DNA from: Nitrospira sp.
GTDB taxonomy: Bacteria; Nitrospirota; Nitrospiria; Nitrospirales; UBA8639
Direction of reading: 5' to 3'
Length of the DNA stretch: 39,461 bases
NCBI GenBank assembly: GCA_028819435.1
Contig: JAPPLK010000114.1
Span: 53,823 to 93,283 of the forward strand
Numbering within the stretch: position 1 is the first letter of the stretch; each line of letters starts with the position of its first letter. The notes beneath the pieces are model-generated. The model ran no database searches. It was not told the DNA's origin and was given only the letters and a program-made list of their open reading frames with translations. Shown here in pieces: positions 12,919 through 24,008 of the stretch. Position numbers and translations under genes: made by a program.

Positions 12919-14958
12919 ATGAGCCCGGACGACGAACGATCCCCTCTTTCAATCGGCATTGACATCGGCGGCACGTTTACCGATTTCGTGGTGTACGACT
13001 ATGACGCCGGTGCCGTCAAGACCTTCAAGGTGCTCTCGACTCCCGCCGATCCTGCGCAAGCTGTGCTGGAAGGATTGCGGAGACTGTCCCCGGCCACCGG
13101 CCGGAGCGTCGTGCACGGCTCGACCGTGGCTACCAACGCTTTGCTCGAACGCAAGGGGGCGTGTACCGCGTTCATCACGACCCAGGGGTTTCGGGACGTG
13201 TTGCAGGTCGGCCGGCAAACCCGTCGAAATCTCTATGATTGGTTCAGTGGCGGAGCACCCGCGCTCGTGCCTCGAGACCTGTGCCTGGAAGTGCAGGAAC
13301 GGCTCGACCATCGCGGTCGAGTGTTGCAAGCCCTGGCCAAACGCTCGCTGCCGTCCCTCATCAAGGCCCTCCGGGAAAAACGAGTTAAAGCCGTCGCGCT
13401 TTCCTTGCTGTTTTCCTTTGTGAATCCCGAGCATGAACGACACGTCGCGCAGCGCCTCCGGGAAGCGGGCTTCTTTGTCTCCGCCTCGCATGAACTGATC
13501 CCTGAATTCCGTGAATTCGAGCGAGCCTCGACCACGGTCGTGAACGCGTACGTTTCTCCGGTGCTCAACCGATACCTGGAGACCCTTGAAGGATCGCTTC
13601 CCGGCGGTTCCTTCCACGTCATGCAATCAAACGGCGGGCGAATTCGGGCGGCGCAGGTGCGGCAGGAGGGCGTCCGGTCAATCCTGTCCGGACCCGCAGG
13701 AGGGGTGATCGGGGCCGAATACCTTGCCAGGCTGGCTGGGTTTTCGCAGATCATCACGTTTGACATGGGCGGCACGTCCACGGACGTGTCCGTGGTCAAC
13801 GGCGTGATTCACACGACGTCGGAAGCGGAAGTCGCCGGACTGCCGATTCGTGTCCCGGTGCTGGACATTCACACGGTCGGCGCCGGCGGCGGGTCTCTGG
13901 CCCGAGTCGATGCCGGAGGGGCCTTGCGCGTGGGACCGGAAAGTGCCGGGGCCGACCCGGGTCCCGCATGTTACGGACTCGGGGGGCAAGTGGCTACGGT
14001 GACGGATGCCAATGCCTTCCTGGGACGTTTGCCGGCCACGGGACTGTTGGGCGGTGAACGGCCTTTGGATATGGATGCCGCCCACGCGGCTCTGGCTGCG
14101 CTCTCTCGAGATTTGGCAAAGTACGATGCCGGTCCTCATATCGACCAGGAGGAGGTTGCCATGGGCATTCTCCAGGTGGTCAATGCCGAGATGGAACGGG
14201 CCATTCGCGTGACGTCAATCGAGCGCGGGCACGATCCCAGGGAATACACGTTGATCTCCTTCGGCGGAGCCGGAGGGGTGCATGCTTGCGAGCTGGCGCG
14301 ATCCCTCAACGTCGGTCGCGTACTGATCCCCTTGGAAGCCTCGACGTTGTCCGCTCTCGGCATGTTGACGGCGAACGTGTTCCTGGATTACGTCCGAACC
14401 GTGATGTGTCCGGGTGAGACCCCGTTTGAAGAGTTGGAACGCCGGTTCGTTCCCATGGTGGAACTGGCGCACGAAGATCTTGCGATCCAGCAGGTCCAGG
14501 TTTCGGCCCGGCACGTGCATTGTGAATTGGATCTCCGGTATCAGGGACAATCTTTTGAACTGACCGTGCCGTTTTCGCCTGATTTTCAAACGGCCTTTCA
14601 TGAACAACACGCCCGGCGTTACGGGTACAAGGACGAGACCGCCGGCATGGAGATCGTCAATCTTCGGGTTCGGGCAATCGGAGACGTGAGTCCCCCGAGG
14701 ATGGAGGCACAGGACCCCGGTCCTGTCGATTCGTCGGGGGCCGTGTGCCATGAACGTCGCCTCGTGCTTGCTTCCGGACCTCGAAGCGTCCCGTTCTATG
14801 ATCGCAGTCTTTTACGACCGGGGCATCACGTGCCCGGGCCTGCCGTCATCTTCCAGGACGATACCACCATTCTGTTGCCGGAAACCGATCACGCGCAGGT
14901 CGATACATGGCAAAACGTGCTCGTCACCATAGGAGACGCTCGTGCAGAAAGCCGTTGA
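12919..14958 (+). CDS. hyuA: Hydantoinase/oxoprolinase subunit A (HyuA family)
   Basis: The ATP-binding subunit of an ATP-dependent amidohydrolase of the N-methylhydantoinase / 5-oxoprolinase / acetone carboxylase superfamily. Its 679 residues are standard length. Visible motifs are IGIDIGGTFTDFVVYD at the N-terminus, HGSTVATNALLERKGA, the second phosphate-binding loop FDMGGTSTDVSVV, HTVGAGGGSLARVD, and ESAGADPGPACYG. The stop lies 17 bases inside the hyuB frame, so the two subunits are translationally coupled. The actual substrate (hydantoin, 5-oxoproline or another cyclic amide) cannot be decided from sequence. The start is ATG 12919. Confidence 0.93.
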   Translation: MSPDDERSPLSIGIDIGGTFTDFVVYDYDAGAVKTFKVLSTPADPAQAVLEGLRRLSPATGRSVVHGSTVATNALLERKGACTAFITTQGFRDVLQVGRQTRRNLYDWFSGGAPALVPRDLCLEVQERLDHRGRVLQALAKRSLPSLIKALREKRVKAVALSLLFSFVNPEHERHVAQRLREAGFFVSASHELIPEFREFERASTTVVNAYVSPVLNRYLETLEGSLPGGSFHVMQSNGGRIRAAQVRQEGVRSILSGPAGGVIGAEYLARLAGFSQIITFDMGGTSTDVSVVNGVIHTTSEAEVAGLPIRVPVLDIHTVGAGGGSLARVDAGGALRVGPESAGADPGPACYGLGGQVATVTDANAFLGRLPATGLLGGERPLDMDAAHAALAALSRDLAKYDAGPHIDQEEVAMGILQVVNAEMERAIRVTSIERGHDPREYTLISFGGAGGVHACELARSLNVGRVLIPLEASTLSALGMLTANVFLDYVRTVMCPGETPFEELERRFVPMVELAHEDLAIQQVQVSARHVHCELDLRYQGQSFELTVPFSPDFQTAFHEQHARRYGYKDETAGMEIVNLRVRAIGDVSPPRMEAQDPGPVDSSGAVCHERRLVLASGPRSVPFYDRSLLRPGHHVPGPAVIFQDDTTILLPETDHAQVDTWQNVLVTIGDARAESR

Positions 14959-16549
14959 ACGGGAAGTCTTTAAACATTTGTTCAGTTCGGTGGCCGAGGA
15001 AATGGGGGTACGCCTGCAACGGTCGGCGTTCTCTCCGAACATCAAGGAGCGCCGGGATTTTTCCTGCGCCGTGTTCGACGAAGCGGGGCACCTGGTGGCG
15101 CAGGCCGCCCATATCCCGATCCATCTCGGGTCCATGCCGCTTTCCGTGGAAGCCTGTCGCCGGCACCTGACCTTTGAGCCGGGTGACGTGGCGATCCTGA
15201 ATGACCCGTTTCACGGCGGAACGCACCTGCCGGACATCACAATTGTCTCTCCTGTCTTCGTCGGGAACGACAGGCTTCTGGGATTTGTCGCCAATCGCGC
15301 ACACCACGCCGACGTGGGTGGGATGTCGGCGGGGTCCATGCCGTTGTCCAGGGAATTGTATCAAGAAGGGGTCATCATCCCGCCCGTGAAACTCGTGGAA
15401 GCCGGCAATGTGAACCAGGCCCTGTGGGATTTCTTCCTGGCGAACGTGCGGACCCCGCGGGAACGGGCGGGCGATTTACAGGCGCAACTGGCGGCCAACC
15501 GGACCGGGGGGCAGCGGCTTCACGAATTGGCGTCCCGATACGGAGCGGAGCGCGTTCGGGGCAATATGTCCGATTTGTTGGCCTATAGCGAACAACTGAC
15601 CAAACACGGTATCAGGCAGTTGCCGAACGGCACCTATCGGTATGAAGACGTGCTTGATGACGACGGTCTTGAGGACAAACCGATCCCGATTGCCGTGACC
15701 GTGACGATCCGAGATAAAGACGTGGAGGTGGATTTCGAAGGGAGTGCGCCCCAGTGCGAGGGTAGTGTCAACGCGGTCTATGCGATTACGGTGTCGGCCA
15801 CGGCATACGTGTTTCGCTGTCTGCTGGGACTGGACATTCCAGGGAACAGCGGATGCATGAGACCTATCCGCGTCCGTGCGCCTGAGGGGTCGGTTGTCAA
15901 TGCCCGGTTTCCTGCGGCGGTGGCCGCAGGCAACGTTGAGACGGCCCAGCGAATCGTGGACGTCCTGTTGGGGGCTTTGGCGCAGGCTTGCCCCGGCAAG
16001 GTGCCGGCCGCGAGCCAGGGGACCATGAACAACGTGACAATCGGGGGGTGGGATTGCGAAAAGCAACGGCCGTTTGCGTATTATGAAACGTTGGGCGGGG
16101 GCATGGGCGCCGGGGTGGAACGTCCGGGGGCGAGCGGCATCCATTCTCATATGACGAATACGATGAATACGCCGGCTGAAGCCCTGGAGTATGCGTATCC
16201 GTTTCGGATATCCCGGTACGTCATTCGGGAAGGGACAGGCGGTGCGGGAGGCCACGCCGGGGGAAACGGGATCACGCGCGAAATCGAATTCCTGCAGGAC
16301 GCGCAGGTGACGATCATCTCTGATCGACGGGAATCGCAACCGTTCGGGTTGGCCGGGGGAGAGGCGGGGCAATCCGGTCGAAACGTGTTGATTCGCAAGG
16401 GCAAGGAAAAGACGCTCCCGGGAAAAACGGAACTGTTCGTGAAAACGGGGGATCGATTGCGTATTGAAACTCCCGGCGGTGGCGGCTATGGTGCATTGAA
16501 GAAGAAAAAACGTGATAAAATTTCCTCTCCCTTGATGGGAGAGGATTAA
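14942..16549 (+). CDS. hyuB: Hydantoinase/oxoprolinase subunit B (HyuB family)
   Basis: The catalytic partner of HyuA, completing ATP-driven ring opening of a hydantoin- or oxoproline-like substrate in the cytoplasm. It has 535 residues and starts at GTG 14942 after GGAGACG. Family motifs include RLQRSAFSPNIKERRDFSCA, HIPIHLGSMP, NDPFHGGTHLPDI, RAHHADVGG and ETLGGGMGAG. The end is odd: after ETPGGGGYGALKKKKR the frame reads into REP repeat DNA (16524 onward), adding SSPLMGED. The natural stop was probably lost or replaced when the repeat arrived. The overlap with hyuA by 17 bases supports a fixed stoichiometry. Confidence 0.93.
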   Translation: MQKAVEREVFKHLFSSVAEEMGVRLQRSAFSPNIKERRDFSCAVFDEAGHLVAQAAHIPIHLGSMPLSVEACRRHLTFEPGDVAILNDPFHGGTHLPDITIVSPVFVGNDRLLGFVANRAHHADVGGMSAGSMPLSRELYQEGVIIPPVKLVEAGNVNQALWDFFLANVRTPRERAGDLQAQLAANRTGGQRLHELASRYGAERVRGNMSDLLAYSEQLTKHGIRQLPNGTYRYEDVLDDDGLEDKPIPIAVTVTIRDKDVEVDFEGSAPQCEGSVNAVYAITVSATAYVFRCLLGLDIPGNSGCMRPIRVRAPEGSVVNARFPAAVAAGNVETAQRIVDVLLGALAQACPGKVPAASQGTMNNVTIGGWDCEKQRPFAYYETLGGGMGAGVERPGASGIHSHMTNTMNTPAEALEYAYPFRISRYVIREGTGGAGGHAGGNGITREIEFLQDAQVTIISDRRESQPFGLAGGEAGQSGRNVLIRKGKEKTLPGKTELFVKTGDRLRIETPGGGGYGALKKKKRDKISSPLMGED

Positions 16550-17074: not shown

Positions 17075-19039
17075 TCAGTGCGGCATCTCCCAATTGCCCT
17101 CCACCCCGAAGCGTACCCATGTGCCCGGGGCGCGGAACCCGAGAAAATCCTCGTACCTCACGTTGGTCAGATTGTCCACGGCCCCGAAGAGTTTCCATCC
17201 GTCGTTCAAGGCATAGGTGGTGGCGAGGTCTATTCGATAATATCCGGGCACCCTCGTTTGCGTTGTGGGAATTTGCAGGTCGAAGCGTTTGCCCGTGGCT
17301 TGGAGTTGGCTGCGTATGGTCAACGCGGGCGTGGCTCGTACGCGGATTGCGAAGCCGCCCGATGCCTTGGGACGGTTCCGTAGCGAGGCGTTTGTCCCCA
17401 AGATGCGGGCGTCCAGGTAGGTGAACCACCCTTGGACCGACACGTCCGGCAATGGGTTGGTCGCCACGTTCAATTCGATCCCCTGCGCCTTGACCTGGTT
17501 CAGATTGACCAGAAGGAAAGTCTGTTGTTTGGCAAGCACCGGGTCCAAGTCGATCTGATTGGAAAAGGTATTGTGGAACCAGGTCAGTTGGATTTCACTG
17601 TCCCAGATCGGGCTTGACCGGAGGATGCCCGCTTCCCACGCGGTACTGGATTCGGGAGTGAGGCGAGGATTTCCGATAATGGGATCGCCCAGGGCATTCA
17701 GGCTCGGCAATTTGAATCCTTGACCGTACGTTCCGTGGATAGTTGTTTGAGGGAACGGTTGAACGCTGACCCCAAGACGAGGAGTCGCCCTGAGCGGCAA
17801 ATCTTCCGGGCTGTCCACGCGAAGCCCTGCACTGAGCCGGACCTGCTCGTTGGGGGAAAAGATCGTTTCCAGAACCCCAGCCGGCGTGGCGCGGGATCGC
17901 TCGAAATCCGTGACGACTTGTGACGGCAACCCCAAGACGGTCAGGTCCTGAGTCCCGGTTCGCGTTCCGTTTTCGTGTACCAGTTGAACCCCGCCGGCGA
18001 TTTTCAATAAGCGGTTCAGGGATGCCCGTAGCGTCCAATGGAAACGCATCCGGGTAAAGTCCGTTCGGAACACCGTCGGCGGGATTCGGAACATTCCGGG
18101 TGCGGACAACACGCCAGGGTTGTCGACGCCCTGTTGCCGGTGGAGCACGTTGGCGGTCAGTTGATTCTCCCAGTTCGGCGTAAGCGGCAACGTCAGGTTA
18201 AACCCGGAAACGATTTCGTGCGTTCGTCGCTGTTCCGTCGAACGTAGAATGGCCAGGCGCGGACCGCCGCTGCCTTCGGGAAATGCACGGGTGTCGGTGT
18301 GCGTGTATTGTCCCGTCAGTTCGAGCTTGAACGAATCCGGACGCGACCAGTTCACATGGCCTCCGATGCTTCCGGATGCGAACCGGTTCCCCGTGACTTG
18401 TCCGTCGTCCCGCGTGAAGGCGGCTGACCCGGCGTAACGGAATCGGCCGGCAGCCCCCGACGCTTGGAGCACGCCGCGGGCGTAGCCCCATTGTCCTCCT
18501 TCCGCGCGGGCGACCAGTCGATCCGCCGTGCTTCCTTTTTGCGTAATGACGTTCACCGCGCCTGCCATGGCGTCGGAGCCGTAGAACACGGAGGCCGGGC
18601 CTTTGACGATTTCGATCCGTTCGATCCGTTCGGGCGTCAAGGAGGACAAATCCACGGAGCCGCCGCGCTGGTTCGTCGGATCGTTCAACGGCACGCCGTC
18701 CAACAGCACCATCGTATAGTTCGGATCACTCCCGCGGACGTAGAGTGAACCCAGGCCGCTCCGGCCTCCCATCGCATCCACGAAAATTCCGGGTGTTTGT
18801 TGCAAGAGGGTGCCCAACCTGTTGGGCTGTTGCAGGTCGTAACTCGTTCGCGTGAACACCGTGGTTTGAAGGGGCGTCTGCGATTGGTTCGTCGGAAGAG
18901 CCGTGGCCGTGACCAGCACGGGGTCGAGCGTTTCAACCGGGGGTTCTGCCAGCCCGGCTGACGGCAAGAGACCAAGCAGGCACCACAAGGCATTGATGCC
19001 GGTCAACAAGGATTGCTTACGAAGTTCCTTTCTTCTCAT
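17075..19039 (-). CDS. TonB-dependent outer-membrane receptor (BtuB/siderophore-like)
   Basis: A 654-residue outer-membrane beta-barrel that imports a ligand using TonB energy. A signal peptide (ALWCLLGLLPSAGLA) is followed by a TonB-box-like LDPVLVTAT. The plug domain has LLQQTPGIFVDAMGGRSG, LYVRGSDPNYTMVLLDGVP, LTPERIERIEIVKGPASVFY and GAVNVITQKG. The 22-strand barrel follows and ends NLTNVRYEDFLGFRAPG...VEGNWEMPH. The lack of a terminal Phe is slightly unusual. I chose ATG 19039; the frame continues about 50 codons upstream without family-like sequence and would overlap the divergent transporter gene. The ligand (vitamin B12, siderophore or other) is not apparent, and no ABC importer or cobalamin riboswitch is adjacent. 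Confidence 0.93.
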   Translation of the reverse strand: MRRKELRKQSLLTGINALWCLLGLLPSAGLAEPPVETLDPVLVTATALPTNQSQTPLQTTVFTRTSYDLQQPNRLGTLLQQTPGIFVDAMGGRSGLGSLYVRGSDPNYTMVLLDGVPLNDPTNQRGGSVDLSSLTPERIERIEIVKGPASVFYGSDAMAGAVNVITQKGSTADRLVARAEGGQWGYARGVLQASGAAGRFRYAGSAAFTRDDGQVTGNRFASGSIGGHVNWSRPDSFKLELTGQYTHTDTRAFPEGSGGPRLAILRSTEQRRTHEIVSGFNLTLPLTPNWENQLTANVLHRQQGVDNPGVLSAPGMFRIPPTVFRTDFTRMRFHWTLRASLNRLLKIAGGVQLVHENGTRTGTQDLTVLGLPSQVVTDFERSRATPAGVLETIFSPNEQVRLSAGLRVDSPEDLPLRATPRLGVSVQPFPQTTIHGTYGQGFKLPSLNALGDPIIGNPRLTPESSTAWEAGILRSSPIWDSEIQLTWFHNTFSNQIDLDPVLAKQQTFLLVNLNQVKAQGIELNVATNPLPDVSVQGWFTYLDARILGTNASLRNRPKASGGFAIRVRATPALTIRSQLQATGKRFDLQIPTTQTRVPGYYRIDLATTYALNDGWKLFGAVDNLTNVRYEDFLGFRAPGTWVRFGVEGNWEMPH

Positions 19040-19136
19040 CAACCGCCGATCTGTGTTATACACACCCGTTCTTCCGTAACCGTCCCGCCCTTTCACATCG
19101 GAAAGACCATCTGCCGGGGGTAGTCGAGGTGTCGTC

Positions 19137-20480
19137 TTGAGCAACACCCCATACCGTACAGGGCCCGAACGTTCGAGCCGGATGCCGTCCTGCATTCCGT
19201 TCCTGATCGTGAACGAAGCTGCCGAGCGCTTCAGTTTCTACGGCATGCGTACGATCCTGATCATCTTCATGACCCAATACCTCCTGAATGCTGACGGCGC
19301 CCTGGACGTGATGAGTGAGCCCGAAGCGCGATCCTATTACCATCTTTTTACGTCAGCGGTCTATTTTTTCCCGGTCATCGGGGCCGTGATTGCAGACGTC
19401 TGGTTCGGGAAGTATTGCACGATCATGTCGTTATCGCTGGTATATTGCCTGGGGCATTTGGCCCTCGCAGTGGATCAGACCAGGCTCGGCCTGGCCGTGG
19501 GGCTGACGCTGATTGCCGTGGGTTCCGGAGGCATCAAACCCTGTGTCTCCGCGAACCTCGGGGACCAATTCAGTTCGACCAACAGTCACCTGCTCAGCAA
19601 GGCCTTTTACTGGTTTTATTTTGCGATCAACTTCGGCGCGGGGATTTCCACGCTCCTGACCCCGTGGCTGCTCAACCATATCGGGCCCCACCTGGCCTTT
19701 GGCGTGCCCGGGCTGTTGATGCTGCTGGCGACGTGGGTGTTCTGGTTGGGACGGCGGGATTACGCGCATATCCCAGCCAAGGGAACCGCGTTTCTGCAGG
19801 AATTGTTGACGCGCGACAGCCTGCTGGCCATGTGGCGGCTTACGCCGATCTACCTGTTTGTGGCCGTGTTTTGGGCGCTCTATGACCAAACCGGGTCGGC
19901 GTGGGTCCTCCAAGCCAGAAACATGGATCTCTATTGGATGGGGGTGGAATGGCTCCCGTCGCAAATTCAGTTCGTCAATCCGTTTTTGATCATGCTCCTC
20001 ATCCCGGTGTTTGCCTACGGCGTCTATCCCGCAGTCGACAGGGTGTTTCCCCTGACGCCCTTGCGGAAGATCAGCATCGGGTTTTTTGTGACGGTGATCG
20101 CCTTCGTGATTTCCGCGGTGATCGAGATGCAGATTGTCTCGGGGCTACGGCCGAATATCTCGTGGCAAATCGCGGCGTTCACGGTTATCACCGCTGCGGA
20201 GGTCATGGTTTCGATCACGTGTCTGGAATTTTCCTACACCCAGGCGCCCAAGGCCTTGAAATCGTTCGTGATGGCACTTTTTCTCTTGTCGGTCTCCCTG
20301 GGGAACGCCTTTACCTCGCTGGTGAATTATTTCATTCAGAATGACGACGGCAGCGTACGGCTGGAGGGCCCGGATTATTATTGGTTTTTCACGGCGGTCA
20401 TGCTGGGCGTGTCGATGCTTTTCATCGTCGTAGCCAAGCGCTACAAAGGCCGAACGTATCTTCAGGGCGGGGACGCCTAG
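19137..20480 (+). CDS. POT-family (PTR2) proton-coupled peptide transporter
   Basis: A 447-residue inner-membrane symporter of the major facilitator superfamily, importing di/tripeptides or related solutes with protons. The family signature NEAAERFSFYGMRTILIIF is near the N-terminus, followed by FFPVIGAVIADVWFGKY, GSGGIKPCVSANLGDQF, KAFYWFYFAINFGAG and about 12 hydrophobic segments. The start is taken as TTG 19137 because the following residues (SNTPYRTGPERSSRMPS) match the N-termini usual in this family; the ATG at 19182 is the alternative. The promoter must lie in the 97-bp gap shared with the divergent TonB receptor. Substrate preference is unknown. Confidence 0.92.
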   Translation: MSNTPYRTGPERSSRMPSCIPFLIVNEAAERFSFYGMRTILIIFMTQYLLNADGALDVMSEPEARSYYHLFTSAVYFFPVIGAVIADVWFGKYCTIMSLSLVYCLGHLALAVDQTRLGLAVGLTLIAVGSGGIKPCVSANLGDQFSSTNSHLLSKAFYWFYFAINFGAGISTLLTPWLLNHIGPHLAFGVPGLLMLLATWVFWLGRRDYAHIPAKGTAFLQELLTRDSLLAMWRLTPIYLFVAVFWALYDQTGSAWVLQARNMDLYWMGVEWLPSQIQFVNPFLIMLLIPVFAYGVYPAVDRVFPLTPLRKISIGFFVTVIAFVISAVIEMQIVSGLRPNISWQIAAFTVITAAEVMVSITCLEFSYTQAPKALKSFVMALFLLSVSLGNAFTSLVNYFIQNDDGSVRLEGPDYYWFFTAVMLGVSMLFIVVAKRYKGRTYLQGGDA

Positions 20481-20875: not shown

Positions 20876-21676
20876 TCAGGGTCTGGGGTTCTGACTCAGA
20901 TACAGGACCTGGTTGACCCGGAAGGCCTGGGTGTACTGGTCGGTCGTGATGTGCTGTGAATGAAAGCAGCGCCCGTCGAAAATGATCAGCCGGTTGGGCT
21001 TCATGCGGATGAGGAAGAGGAGTTCCCAATAGGCGTTGCCGTCATTGATATAGGTATTGTCCCGGTTGGCGAATAACGGGTTGAAGATCATGCTGTTCTG
21101 AAAATTTTCATACCCCTCCGCACTGTTGAGAAATTCATCGCTGAGTTCCAGCCTGTCGGCCAGTTCGCGGATTTCCCTGTCCGGCACGATGGGTACCCGT
21201 TCCAACCCCGTGGGCACGTGACGGTACAGGCCGGTTCCACCCATGCAGGATTCAGCCGGGTTCAGGTAGACCATGGCGGTCACGTCCTGGTCGATATGGG
21301 GTTGACGTTGCCCGACGTTGAGGCGGTACTGGTGGTTGGTGATGCCCTGAAACACGACCGGCTGGGGGTCGAAAAACGGGTAGAGTTTCATGCCCCAGAA
21401 CTCACTGATCGCATCCACGATCGTCCCGGTCCCGACGTTGACCGAAGCCCGAACGCCGGGAAAGTTGCCGACTATCTCGAAGCGATCGGTATACGGTAAT
21501 TCCAGGGCCCGTTGCAGGACCAGGTCGGGATACAGGTAGAACCCGTCGACCATGACGACCTTGTGGCGGCCTAGGCCGGCGTGTTCGACGGAGACTTGAC
21601 AGTCGGGATTGATCGCAAAGGTTTCAGGGGAGGGTGGCACGAGCGACTCCCTGTCCACGTGACGGGTTTCCGCCAT
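20876..21676 (-). CDS. DUF6445-like putative Fe(II)/2-oxoglutarate-dependent oxygenase
   Basis: A 266-residue cytoplasmic protein resembling the DUF6445 family. It shows the elements expected of a cupin-fold Fe(II)/2OG oxygenase: PHIDQD (His127 and Asp129 as HxD metal ligands), then MVYLNP and GGTGLYRH, a distal His (239 or 242 in RCFHSQHIT) and Arg253 in FRVNQVLYLS as a possible 2-oxoglutarate contact. DUF6445 members are often found with biosynthetic genes, so it may hydroxylate an amino acid, peptide or small metabolite (inference). It starts at ATG 21676, 152 bases from the divergent PLP decarboxylase gene, which suggests a shared promoter region and pathway. No experimental function is known to me. 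Confidence 0.65.
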   Translation of the reverse strand: MAETRHVDRESLVPPSPETFAINPDCQVSVEHAGLGRHKVVMVDGFYLYPDLVLQRALELPYTDRFEIVGNFPGVRASVNVGTGTIVDAISEFWGMKLYPFFDPQPVVFQGITNHQYRLNVGQRQPHIDQDVTAMVYLNPAESCMGGTGLYRHVPTGLERVPIVPDREIRELADRLELSDEFLNSAEGYENFQNSMIFNPLFANRDNTYINDGNAYWELLFLIRMKPNRLIIFDGRCFHSQHITTDQYTQAFRVNQVLYLSQNPRP

Positions 21677-21828
21677 GGTGCGCCATCGGATTCCCTTGCG
21701 TCAACGGGATTGGCTTTGCTACCTCATGGCGTCGCGTCGTCAATCATCGTGGCTCTCCGTGGTACAATAAAGTACCATGCGATTTTGCGTGTCACTCATC
21801 CACGATTTCCTTGAGGAAGGAACAAGGC

Positions 21829-23469
21829 ATGACTGCTCCGTACCGCGACCTGCTGGCCACGATCCGCGTCTGTTTTCCGCAGCCGATTTCCAACCGTGTT
21901 CATGACAGCTATTTTGTCCATAGCGTCATGCGTGCGATGGATGCGGTGGACGCATTGAAAAGCGAGCGGCCTATTCTGGGGCAGCGCACGCCCCTGGATT
22001 ACGACAAGGCCCGGGAAGCGAGTCTTTCCGAGGGCGGGATGAGCGTCGAGGAAGTCACCGCCGAACTGGTGTCGTATTGTTCGGGATTGACCATTCCCGG
22101 ACATCCCCATACGCAACAGAACGTGATCCCTCCACCGACCATCTCCTCGCTGATCGGGGTGCTCCTGGCTTCCTTGTATAACCCCAATCTCGGGTGGGAC
22201 GAATACAGCCATCGCCTGGCCCTGGCAGAAGTGGAGATGGTGGCGATGACCGCGCGTCTCGTGGGATACGAGCCGTCACGCGCAGGGGGAGTGTTCACCT
22301 TCGGCGGGACCGGCACAACGCTCTACGGGGCCAAGATCGGGTTGGAGAAAGCGATTCCCGGCGCCATGGCATCGGGAGTGCAGGAGGGAGCCGTCATTTT
22401 TGCCAGCGAGTCCAGTCATTACTGCCGGTACAACATTGCAGGATGGTTGGGCCTCGGAGCCAACAGCGTCATCACGGTTTCGACGGACTCACGGAACGCC
22501 ATGAACGTCGAGATCTTTCGGGAGCAGGCCAGGGGAGTTCTTCAACGGGGTGGAAAAATCGCCGCGATTATCGTCACCATGGGGACCACGGATGCCTTTG
22601 GACTCGATGACCTGGCCGCCATCGTGGCCGTCCGCGATGAATTGGTGGAAGAATTTCAACTTCCGTACCAACCCCACGTTCACGCTGATGCCGTCATCGG
22701 CTGGGCCTGGTCGGTGTTCAACGACTATGATTTTGAGGGCAACCCTTTGGGATTCCGACCGCGAACTCTTCGTGCGTTGGCAGGGGCTCGTCTTGCCATC
22801 CATGGTTTGTACCTGGCTGACAGCGTGGGGATCGATTTTCATAAATCGGGGTTTGCTCCCTATATCTCGAGCCTGGTGTTGTTCAAGAATTATGACGACC
22901 TGGCCTTGATTCACCGGCCCCAAGAGCAGATGCCGTACCTTTATCAGTTCGGCACCCATCGTCCGGGTATGTACACCGTCGAGACTTCCCGGGCGGGCGG
23001 GGGGATTCTTGCAGCCTTGGCGAACATGAAACTATTCGGGAAGCAAGGCCTGCAAGTCATCATTGGCCACATTGTCGAGATGTCTCAATTGCTCCGTGAA
23101 CATTTGGAGGGGAATAATAGCACCACGGTCCTGAACCGGGAGAATTTCGGCCCGGTGACGCTGTTTCGGGTTTATCCGCGCGGGATCGACACCTTCCGGA
23201 TCAAAGAGGAGGAAAGCACGGACGTGGCCTATCGAGAGACGTTGCAATCGCACAATGAGTATAACCGGAAGGTGTTCCAATACGTCCATCAAGAGGCGAT
23301 GGAAGGTCGGGGCGCGGTGTTGTCCTTAACGGATTGCTATCGCGTCTCGGACTATGGAGAGCCGATCGTGGCGCTGAAGTCCTTTATCCTTTCCCCGTTT
23401 GTGGATGAAGAAGGGATCGAAGTGGTCGTGCAGAAGGTGTTGGAAGCCCGGAACCGGATCGAGGAGTAG
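21829..23469 (+). CDS. PLP-dependent group II amino-acid decarboxylase
   Basis: A 546-residue fold-type I PLP enzyme of the glutamate/tyrosine/aromatic-amino-acid decarboxylase group. It shows GVFTFGGTGTTLYGAKIG (phosphate-binding region), HVHADAVIGWAW (His285 and Asp287 for PLP) and the Schiff-base Lys339 in GIDFHKSGFAPY. It would convert an amino acid to an amine and CO2; the substrate is unknown. I chose ATG 21829, with GGAAGGAA about 8 bases upstream; the frame runs 65 codons further upstream without family-like sequence. It is divergent from the DUF6445-like gene and convergent with the secreted hypothetical, with 17 bases between stops. The GFAPYISSLVLFKN region after the lysine differs from textbook GAD sequences, so this is probably a distinct subfamily. 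Confidence 0.88.
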   Translation: MTAPYRDLLATIRVCFPQPISNRVHDSYFVHSVMRAMDAVDALKSERPILGQRTPLDYDKAREASLSEGGMSVEEVTAELVSYCSGLTIPGHPHTQQNVIPPPTISSLIGVLLASLYNPNLGWDEYSHRLALAEVEMVAMTARLVGYEPSRAGGVFTFGGTGTTLYGAKIGLEKAIPGAMASGVQEGAVIFASESSHYCRYNIAGWLGLGANSVITVSTDSRNAMNVEIFREQARGVLQRGGKIAAIIVTMGTTDAFGLDDLAAIVAVRDELVEEFQLPYQPHVHADAVIGWAWSVFNDYDFEGNPLGFRPRTLRALAGARLAIHGLYLADSVGIDFHKSGFAPYISSLVLFKNYDDLALIHRPQEQMPYLYQFGTHRPGMYTVETSRAGGGILAALANMKLFGKQGLQVIIGHIVEMSQLLREHLEGNNSTTVLNRENFGPVTLFRVYPRGIDTFRIKEEESTDVAYRETLQSHNEYNRKVFQYVHQEAMEGRGAVLSLTDCYRVSDYGEPIVALKSFILSPFVDEEGIEVVVQKVLEARNRIEE

Positions 23470-23486: not shown

Positions 23487-24008
23487 CTAGTGCGTGTGAT
23501 CGCTCAACAGGTCGAGAAAGCGCGGCGCCAGGATGCGGCTCTGAATCATCAGCAATCCACGTTCTCCCAGTTCCCGGTAACTCAGGCTGATCTCGGTTTC
23601 ATCGAGACGCCAGGAGTACTCCTGGTTCAGCCCCCGGATCATCGAGCCGCGGTTGTGTTGAAGTTTCCCGTATGCCGATTCCAACGCCTGCTTGATCCGG
23701 TTGTGCGTGTCTTCGCTACGGTACCGGATCATCACCCGGGCAAATTGGGTATCAATGGCATAGAGCTTGATGGCCTCCACCGGTCCATTCGCAAAACGCG
23801 GTAGGCCTTCCTTGTATCCATAAATGTCGACTCGACCATCAGGCTCGACGAGGACAAGTTGAGGAAGTTCCGCCAGCGTACTTCCCCAGGGAATCCCCTG
23901 AAATCCCGGTTCAGGCACGGCCGCCGGCTTTGCAGCGAGAAGCAATGCAGGCAACCAGAGGAAGAAAACCGATAGCGGAACGAGGTACGGAACGCGACGT
24001 GGCGCCAT
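23487..24008 (-). CDS. Secreted hypothetical protein, 173 residues
   Basis: A signal peptide (VPLSVFFLWLPALLLAAKPA) precedes a compact domain beginning GFQGIPWGSTLAELPQL, a pattern common to small periplasmic hypotheticals. It continues with DIYGYKEGLP and an alpha-helical NRIKQALESAYGKL. There are no cysteines in the mature part and no catalytic motif I can name. The start is ATG 24008. The function is unknown; the location is probably periplasmic. Confidence 0.75.
   Translation of the reverse strand: MAPRRVPYLVPLSVFFLWLPALLLAAKPAAVPEPGFQGIPWGSTLAELPQLVLVEPDGRVDIYGYKEGLPRFANGPVEAIKLYAIDTQFARVMIRYRSEDTHNRIKQALESAYGKLQHNRGSMIRGLNQEYSWRLDETEISLSYRELGERGLLMIQSRILAPRFLDLLSDHTH

Follow-up and report, generated by a model that had tools for sequence, protein, structure and literature searches.

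T4-like cyanophages carry several proteins of the 2OG-Fe(II) oxygenase superfamily (PMC3037559), and some cyanophage proteins are relatives of the DUF6445 protein described below. In Gammaproteobacteria, DUF6445 genes can adjoin a tryptophan halogenase and a TonB-dependent receptor (for example in Catenovulum; L182). Our literature search returned no paper naming DUF6445 and nothing relevant on this halogenase neighbourhood. For group II PLP-dependent decarboxylases, a tyrosine instead of a phenylalanine in the catalytic loop favours simple decarboxylation over aldehyde synthesis (PMC11308512).

Here we analysed a window of 39,461 nucleotides from a 2.62 Mb Nitrospira assembly, whose nearest relatives are Nitrospira and Nitrospirales genomes, mostly MAGs. 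The first-pass annotation of this DNA had pointed to a divergent pair of genes, one for a DUF6445 protein and one for an amino-acid decarboxylase, and had proposed that both enzymes work in one small pathway. Both open reading frames are real and lie 152 bp apart, where that annotation had placed them (Table 1). The joint pathway did not hold up, and we conclude that the pair is in all likelihood two independent enzymes that remain divergent neighbours by inherited synteny in one Nitrospirota family. A longer decarboxylase reading frame of 611 aa from position 21634 runs over the start of DUF6445 and is unlikely to mark the true start. Elsewhere in the window, hydantoinase/oxoprolinase A and B genes (PF01968, PF02538) stand in tandem at positions 12919-16549; their closest NCBIfam models are caprolactamase subunits, with scores well under the cut-offs.

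Table 1. Features of the locus, in window coordinates
Feature	Position	Strand	Remarks
TonB-dependent receptor	17075-19195		
POT/PTR2 family peptide transporter	19137-20480	+	Convergent to DUF6445
DUF6445 (PF20043) protein, predicted Fe(II)/2-oxoglutarate-dependent oxygenase	20876-21676	-	266 aa
Arg253 codon, predicted 2-oxoglutarate anchor	20918-20920	-	Invariant in alignment
His239 codon, predicted third metal ligand	20960-20962	-	Invariant in alignment
Family-specific insert of ~45 aa (residues ~166-212), candidate substrate lid	21041-21181	-	From conservation
His127-Ile128-Asp129 codons, predicted HxD metal ligands	21290-21298	-	His and Asp invariant in alignment
Divergent intergenic region	21677-21828		152 bp
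TGGTACAATA, extended -10-like element directed at the decarboxylase	21760-21769	+	Kept in close relatives
Group II PLP-dependent amino-acid decarboxylase	21829 (ATG) to 23469 (stop)	+	546 aa
Lys339 codon, PLP Schiff-base lysine in DFHKSGFAPY	22843-22845	+	Invariant in 30/30 homologues
Tyr370 codon, probable tyrosine of the catalytic loop (favouring decarboxylase over aldehyde synthase)	22936-22938	+	Invariant in 30/30 homologues
Hypothetical gene HYP173	23487-24008		

The DUF6445 protein and its relatives

The DUF6445 protein matched PF20043 well above the curated cut-off of 24 bits (E 2.6e-20, 73.8 bits). We aligned 13 proteins of the family from Nitrospirota, Gammaproteobacteria and cyanophages, which share 22-31% identity with the window protein except for three close orthologues. 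Ten columns were invariant: G74, P126, H127, D129, G147, T148, N228, R229, H239, and R253. A complete 2-His-1-carboxylate facial triad of the HxD...H type (H127, D129, H239) is therefore present in all 13 divergent proteins, together with a distal 2-oxoglutarate-binding arginine (R253), which lies 14 residues past H239 in the window protein. The HxD...H...R arrangement read from this DNA before is thus borne out for His127, Asp129, His239, and Arg253, while His242, which had been offered as an alternative to His239, is unconserved and replaced by Tyr in most orthologues; the predicted third metal ligand is His239, not His242.

This residue set makes it very probable that the protein is a 2-oxoglutarate-dependent Fe(II) oxygenase, a member of an uncharacterised branch of a known superfamily. 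In the mechanism that we propose, H127, D129, and H239 would bind iron and R253 would anchor 2-oxoglutarate; activation of O2 would then lead to hydroxylation or another oxidation of a small substrate and would yield CO2 and succinate as side products. The enzyme class is supported by the sequence; the reaction and the substrate we infer. DUF6445 has had no described function, and its link to the 2OG-Fe(II) oxygenases, together with the list of invariant residues, turns it into a testable enzyme.

Orthologues within the same Nitrospirota family are 65-94% identical and share an insert at residues ~166-212, flanked by the GGT and H...R strands. Among these orthologues the insert is as conserved as the catalytic core (mean column conservation 0.86), whereas most other DUF6445 proteins lack it. 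It may act as a lid over the substrate.

The cyanophage proteins also suggest the superfamily link. A tblastn search with the window protein found cyanophage proteins annotated as prolyl-4-hydroxylase or 2OG-Fe(II) oxygenase, the best of them (26% identity over 91% of the length, E 3e-10) as a prolyl 4-hydroxylase Fe(2+) 2OG dioxygenase domain protein. One cyanophage protein (L193) scored above the cut-off for PF20043 (38.6 bits) and also matched PF13640 (2OG-FeII_Oxy_3) at E 2.2e-4, where its 22.6 bits fall short of the cut-off of 27; the window protein itself did not match the PF13640 profile directly. We set aside the PHROG label 'minor coat protein' (phrog_1644) as carried-over annotation, because the cyanophage members of this group have the catalytic residues and are called 2OG oxygenases in other records. 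A search of viral contigs with the DUF6445 alignments gave no confirmed match.

Neither single-sequence nor profile searches of the PDB with the DUF6445 protein found a significant homologue, and its AF2 model was poor (pLDDT 47), which made the Foldseek matches of this model meaningless. When the poor model was realigned to 223 chains, the sole match with Z of at least 2 was PolD (PDB 9blq), an iron- and succinate-bound 2OG enzyme, at a weak Z of 3.9; we take this as suggestive, a hint and no more. With no solved homologue by sequence and no confident model, DUF6445 might be read as a degenerate, non-catalytic cupin-like protein. We consider this highly improbable, given that even very divergent proteins show no substitution at any of the four catalytic residues and that the gene is under strong purifying selection, with dN/dS of 0.08-0.13 among three relatives (G028, G030, and G035).

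The same genomes also carry a second, distant DUF6445 paralogue next to a gene that by eye looks recN-like. In the window's own genome this paralogue lies on contig C109 (L139:6479-7147) and encodes a 2OG-oxygenase candidate of ~222 aa. It is kept in more than 30 relatives, another family of the order included, and one genome (G023) has two more decayed partial copies near it.

A canonical group II decarboxylase

The product of the divergent gene is a canonical group II PLP enzyme, in agreement with its earlier assignment. It matched PF00282 above the curated cut-off of 27 bits (E 3.5e-14, 52.8 bits), and its AF2 model was good (pLDDT 87.7), with fold type I and the Sphaerobacter protein 4rj0 as the best structural match (Z 43.4, rmsd 2.4 over 458 residues). 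Lys339, Asp287, His197, and Tyr370 are invariant in 30 of 30 homologues from bacteria and archaea. Acting on its own, the enzyme would convert an L-amino acid to the amine and CO2, with Lys339 forming the aldimine, His197 stacking on the cofactor, Asp287 contacting the pyridine nitrogen, and Tyr370 serving as proton donor. Tyr370 aligns with the PY of 8zpi and 6ebn and by this alignment is probably the Tyr/Phe switch residue of PMC11308512.

The sequence around the lysine had been called unusual, which is only partly right. DFHKSGFAPY fits DxHKxGxxPY, the signature of 6ebn, a fungal non-canonical aromatic decarboxylase (ncAAAD) that has IDPHKAGYVPY at this place, and the motif is therefore not strange. 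Scores against the NCBIfam equivalogs (PanP, RhbB, TyrDC, MfnA, GAD) all stayed far under the cut-offs, the best at 85.5 bits against 606, so that these models single out no substrate for the decarboxylase.

In the decarboxylase tree, Nitrospirota sequences fall at two distinct places, both well supported, and are intermixed with other phyla, a pattern suggestive of horizontal spread. The gene has probably passed from one phylum to another, and it is often lost. No recurring partner accompanies it in other phyla; the one recurring cluster, c9, lies on the opposite strand, and we read it as an antisense shadow ORF. The decarboxylases of a Lentimicrobiaceae genome (L120:5617-7629) and a Cloacimonadota genome (L123:1195-3186) have an N-terminal extension that by eye resembles a STAS domain, which would be an unusual fusion in this enzyme class. 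An Acidobacteriota-like decarboxylase also occurs in a record under the name Bifidobacterium breve (L126), probably a mislabelled or contaminated bin.

Distribution of DUF6445, the decarboxylase, and the POT transporter

We compared the occurrence of the two genes across about 110 genomes in all. The order-level sample comprised 60 genomes, the window's own included, and 32 of them carry DUF6445, all from one Nitrospirota family. An intact decarboxylase is present in 19 of these 32 and missing from 13, and the counts for the family as a whole (both genes intact, DUF6445 without an intact decarboxylase, decarboxylase alone, neither) are 19/13/0/5. What is left of the decarboxylase in four genomes (G020, G028, G030, and G035) is a fragmented remnant adjoining an intact DUF6445 gene. 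Selection on DUF6445 was not relaxed by this loss, since dN/dS is similar after the decay: comparisons of the window gene with genomes holding an intact decarboxylase gave 0.10-0.22, against 0.08-0.13 among G028, G030, and G035. The in-place decarboxylase pseudogenes at L145, L148, L149, and L151, with frameshifts and deletions, come from two genera and indicate repeated loss in this family.

Outside the family, PF20043 was found in none of 50 decarboxylase-carrying genomes, which came from Poribacteria, Planctomycetes, Acidobacteria, Gemmatimonadota, Rhodothermales, archaea, two order-level Nitrospirota, and others; the same search does pick up DUF6445 in the genome that holds the window and, for another class, in 5 of 274 genomes. 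By protein search, the two order-level relatives have an intact decarboxylase and no DUF6445.

These counts bear on the proposal that decarboxylase and oxygenase act sequentially on a single amino acid, with a hydroxylated amine as the product. In its favour, the genes are divergent neighbours 152 bp apart in the window, they are likewise divergent and adjacent in most close relatives and in most genomes that have both, and DUF6445 accompanies the intact decarboxylase wherever it occurs within the family. The latter means that there may be a facultative functional link in those genomes. Against a joint pathway stand the genome-wide co-occurrence, on which the first-pass annotation had meant the idea to be judged (none of 50 outside, 13 of 32 without an intact decarboxylase inside), the four remnants decaying beside a DUF6445 gene that stays under selection, and the different evolutionary histories implied by the decarboxylase tree. 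We regard the pathway as very unlikely. Divergent adjacency, even when conserved within one family, did not imply a shared pathway here, which is a caution for similar cases.

The intergenic region agrees only in part with what had been described as a shared promoter region. The 152-bp geometry is right, but the sole conserved promoter-like element, TGGTACAATA, faces the decarboxylase. It is present in eight of eight close relatives, in one of them as TGATACAATA. No promoter-like counterpart was recognised on the DUF6445 side, and a sigma-70 scan found no site near either start, with counts at chance level.

More plausibly than the decarboxylase, the POT transporter is a candidate partner for DUF6445, and we offer it as a lead. 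In the 60-genome sample it is present in 32 of 32 DUF6445 genomes; outside those, we found one fragment, in a 64%-complete genome, and the other three sampled families are without it. The transporter is retained when unlinked from DUF6445: in G011, for instance, whose genome is a single contig, it lies ~45 kb off, and in G014 it is on a different contig. The controls, HYP173 and the DUF6445 paralogue, have distributions unlike that of DUF6445. As a separate observation, a 97%-complete congener (G006) lacks POT, DUF6445, the decarboxylase, and HYP173 together but still has the DUF6445 paralogue, which looks like loss of the entire island or its fall into an assembly gap.

A tentative reading, to which we give rather less than an even chance, is that a peptide or peptide-like compound is imported by POT, possibly after uptake through the TonB-dependent receptor, and that the oxygenase then modifies the compound or an amino acid derived from it. 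The identical distribution in the 60 genomes speaks for it, as does the persistence of POT both in genomes where it is unlinked and in those that have lost the decarboxylase, and gammaproteobacterial DUF6445 genes can likewise adjoin a TonB-dependent receptor, there with a tryptophan halogenase. On the other side, all genomes with POT and DUF6445 belong to one taxonomic family, so the match could reflect a single co-acquisition; the genes are convergent and form no operon; and we recognised no POT gene close to those DUF6445 genes of Gammaproteobacteria that we looked at. This reading refines rather than excludes the conclusion of two independent enzymes. Because POT is the closest linked gene, a peptide-like or amino-acid-like compound is the best guess for the DUF6445 substrate. 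That the Nitrospirota-family branch of DUF6445, with its own nearly invariant ~45-aa insert, and the ever-present POT form an undescribed route for uptake and oxidation of a peptide-like compound in Nitrospira-like bacteria is a more speculative idea, which we think improbable.

Comparison with known enzymes

Independent enzymes, as we take them to be, the two proteins each resemble a different described group. The decarboxylase shares its fold, the Lys/His/Asp set, and the probable loop tyrosine with 4rj0, DfoJ (5o5c), ncAAAD (6ebn), TyrDC (7cwx/5hsi), and MfnA, and the DxHKxGxxPY motif with 6ebn, but its identity to known group II decarboxylases is ~22% or less.

A tryptophan-halogenase context was considered for the window's DUF6445 gene and rejected, as its own genome gave no halogenase match. 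The gammaproteobacterial, halogenase-associated DUF6445 proteins belong to the same Pfam family and have the same invariant residues, but are only ~22-25% identical, and the Nitrospirota gene is without an adjoining halogenase. With the 2OG-Fe(II) oxygenases at large, the DUF6445 protein has in common the HxD...H...R arrangement, with GGT and NR signatures in between, and homology to the annotated cyanophage members; it differs from them by the conserved ~45-aa insert before the second metal-binding histidine.
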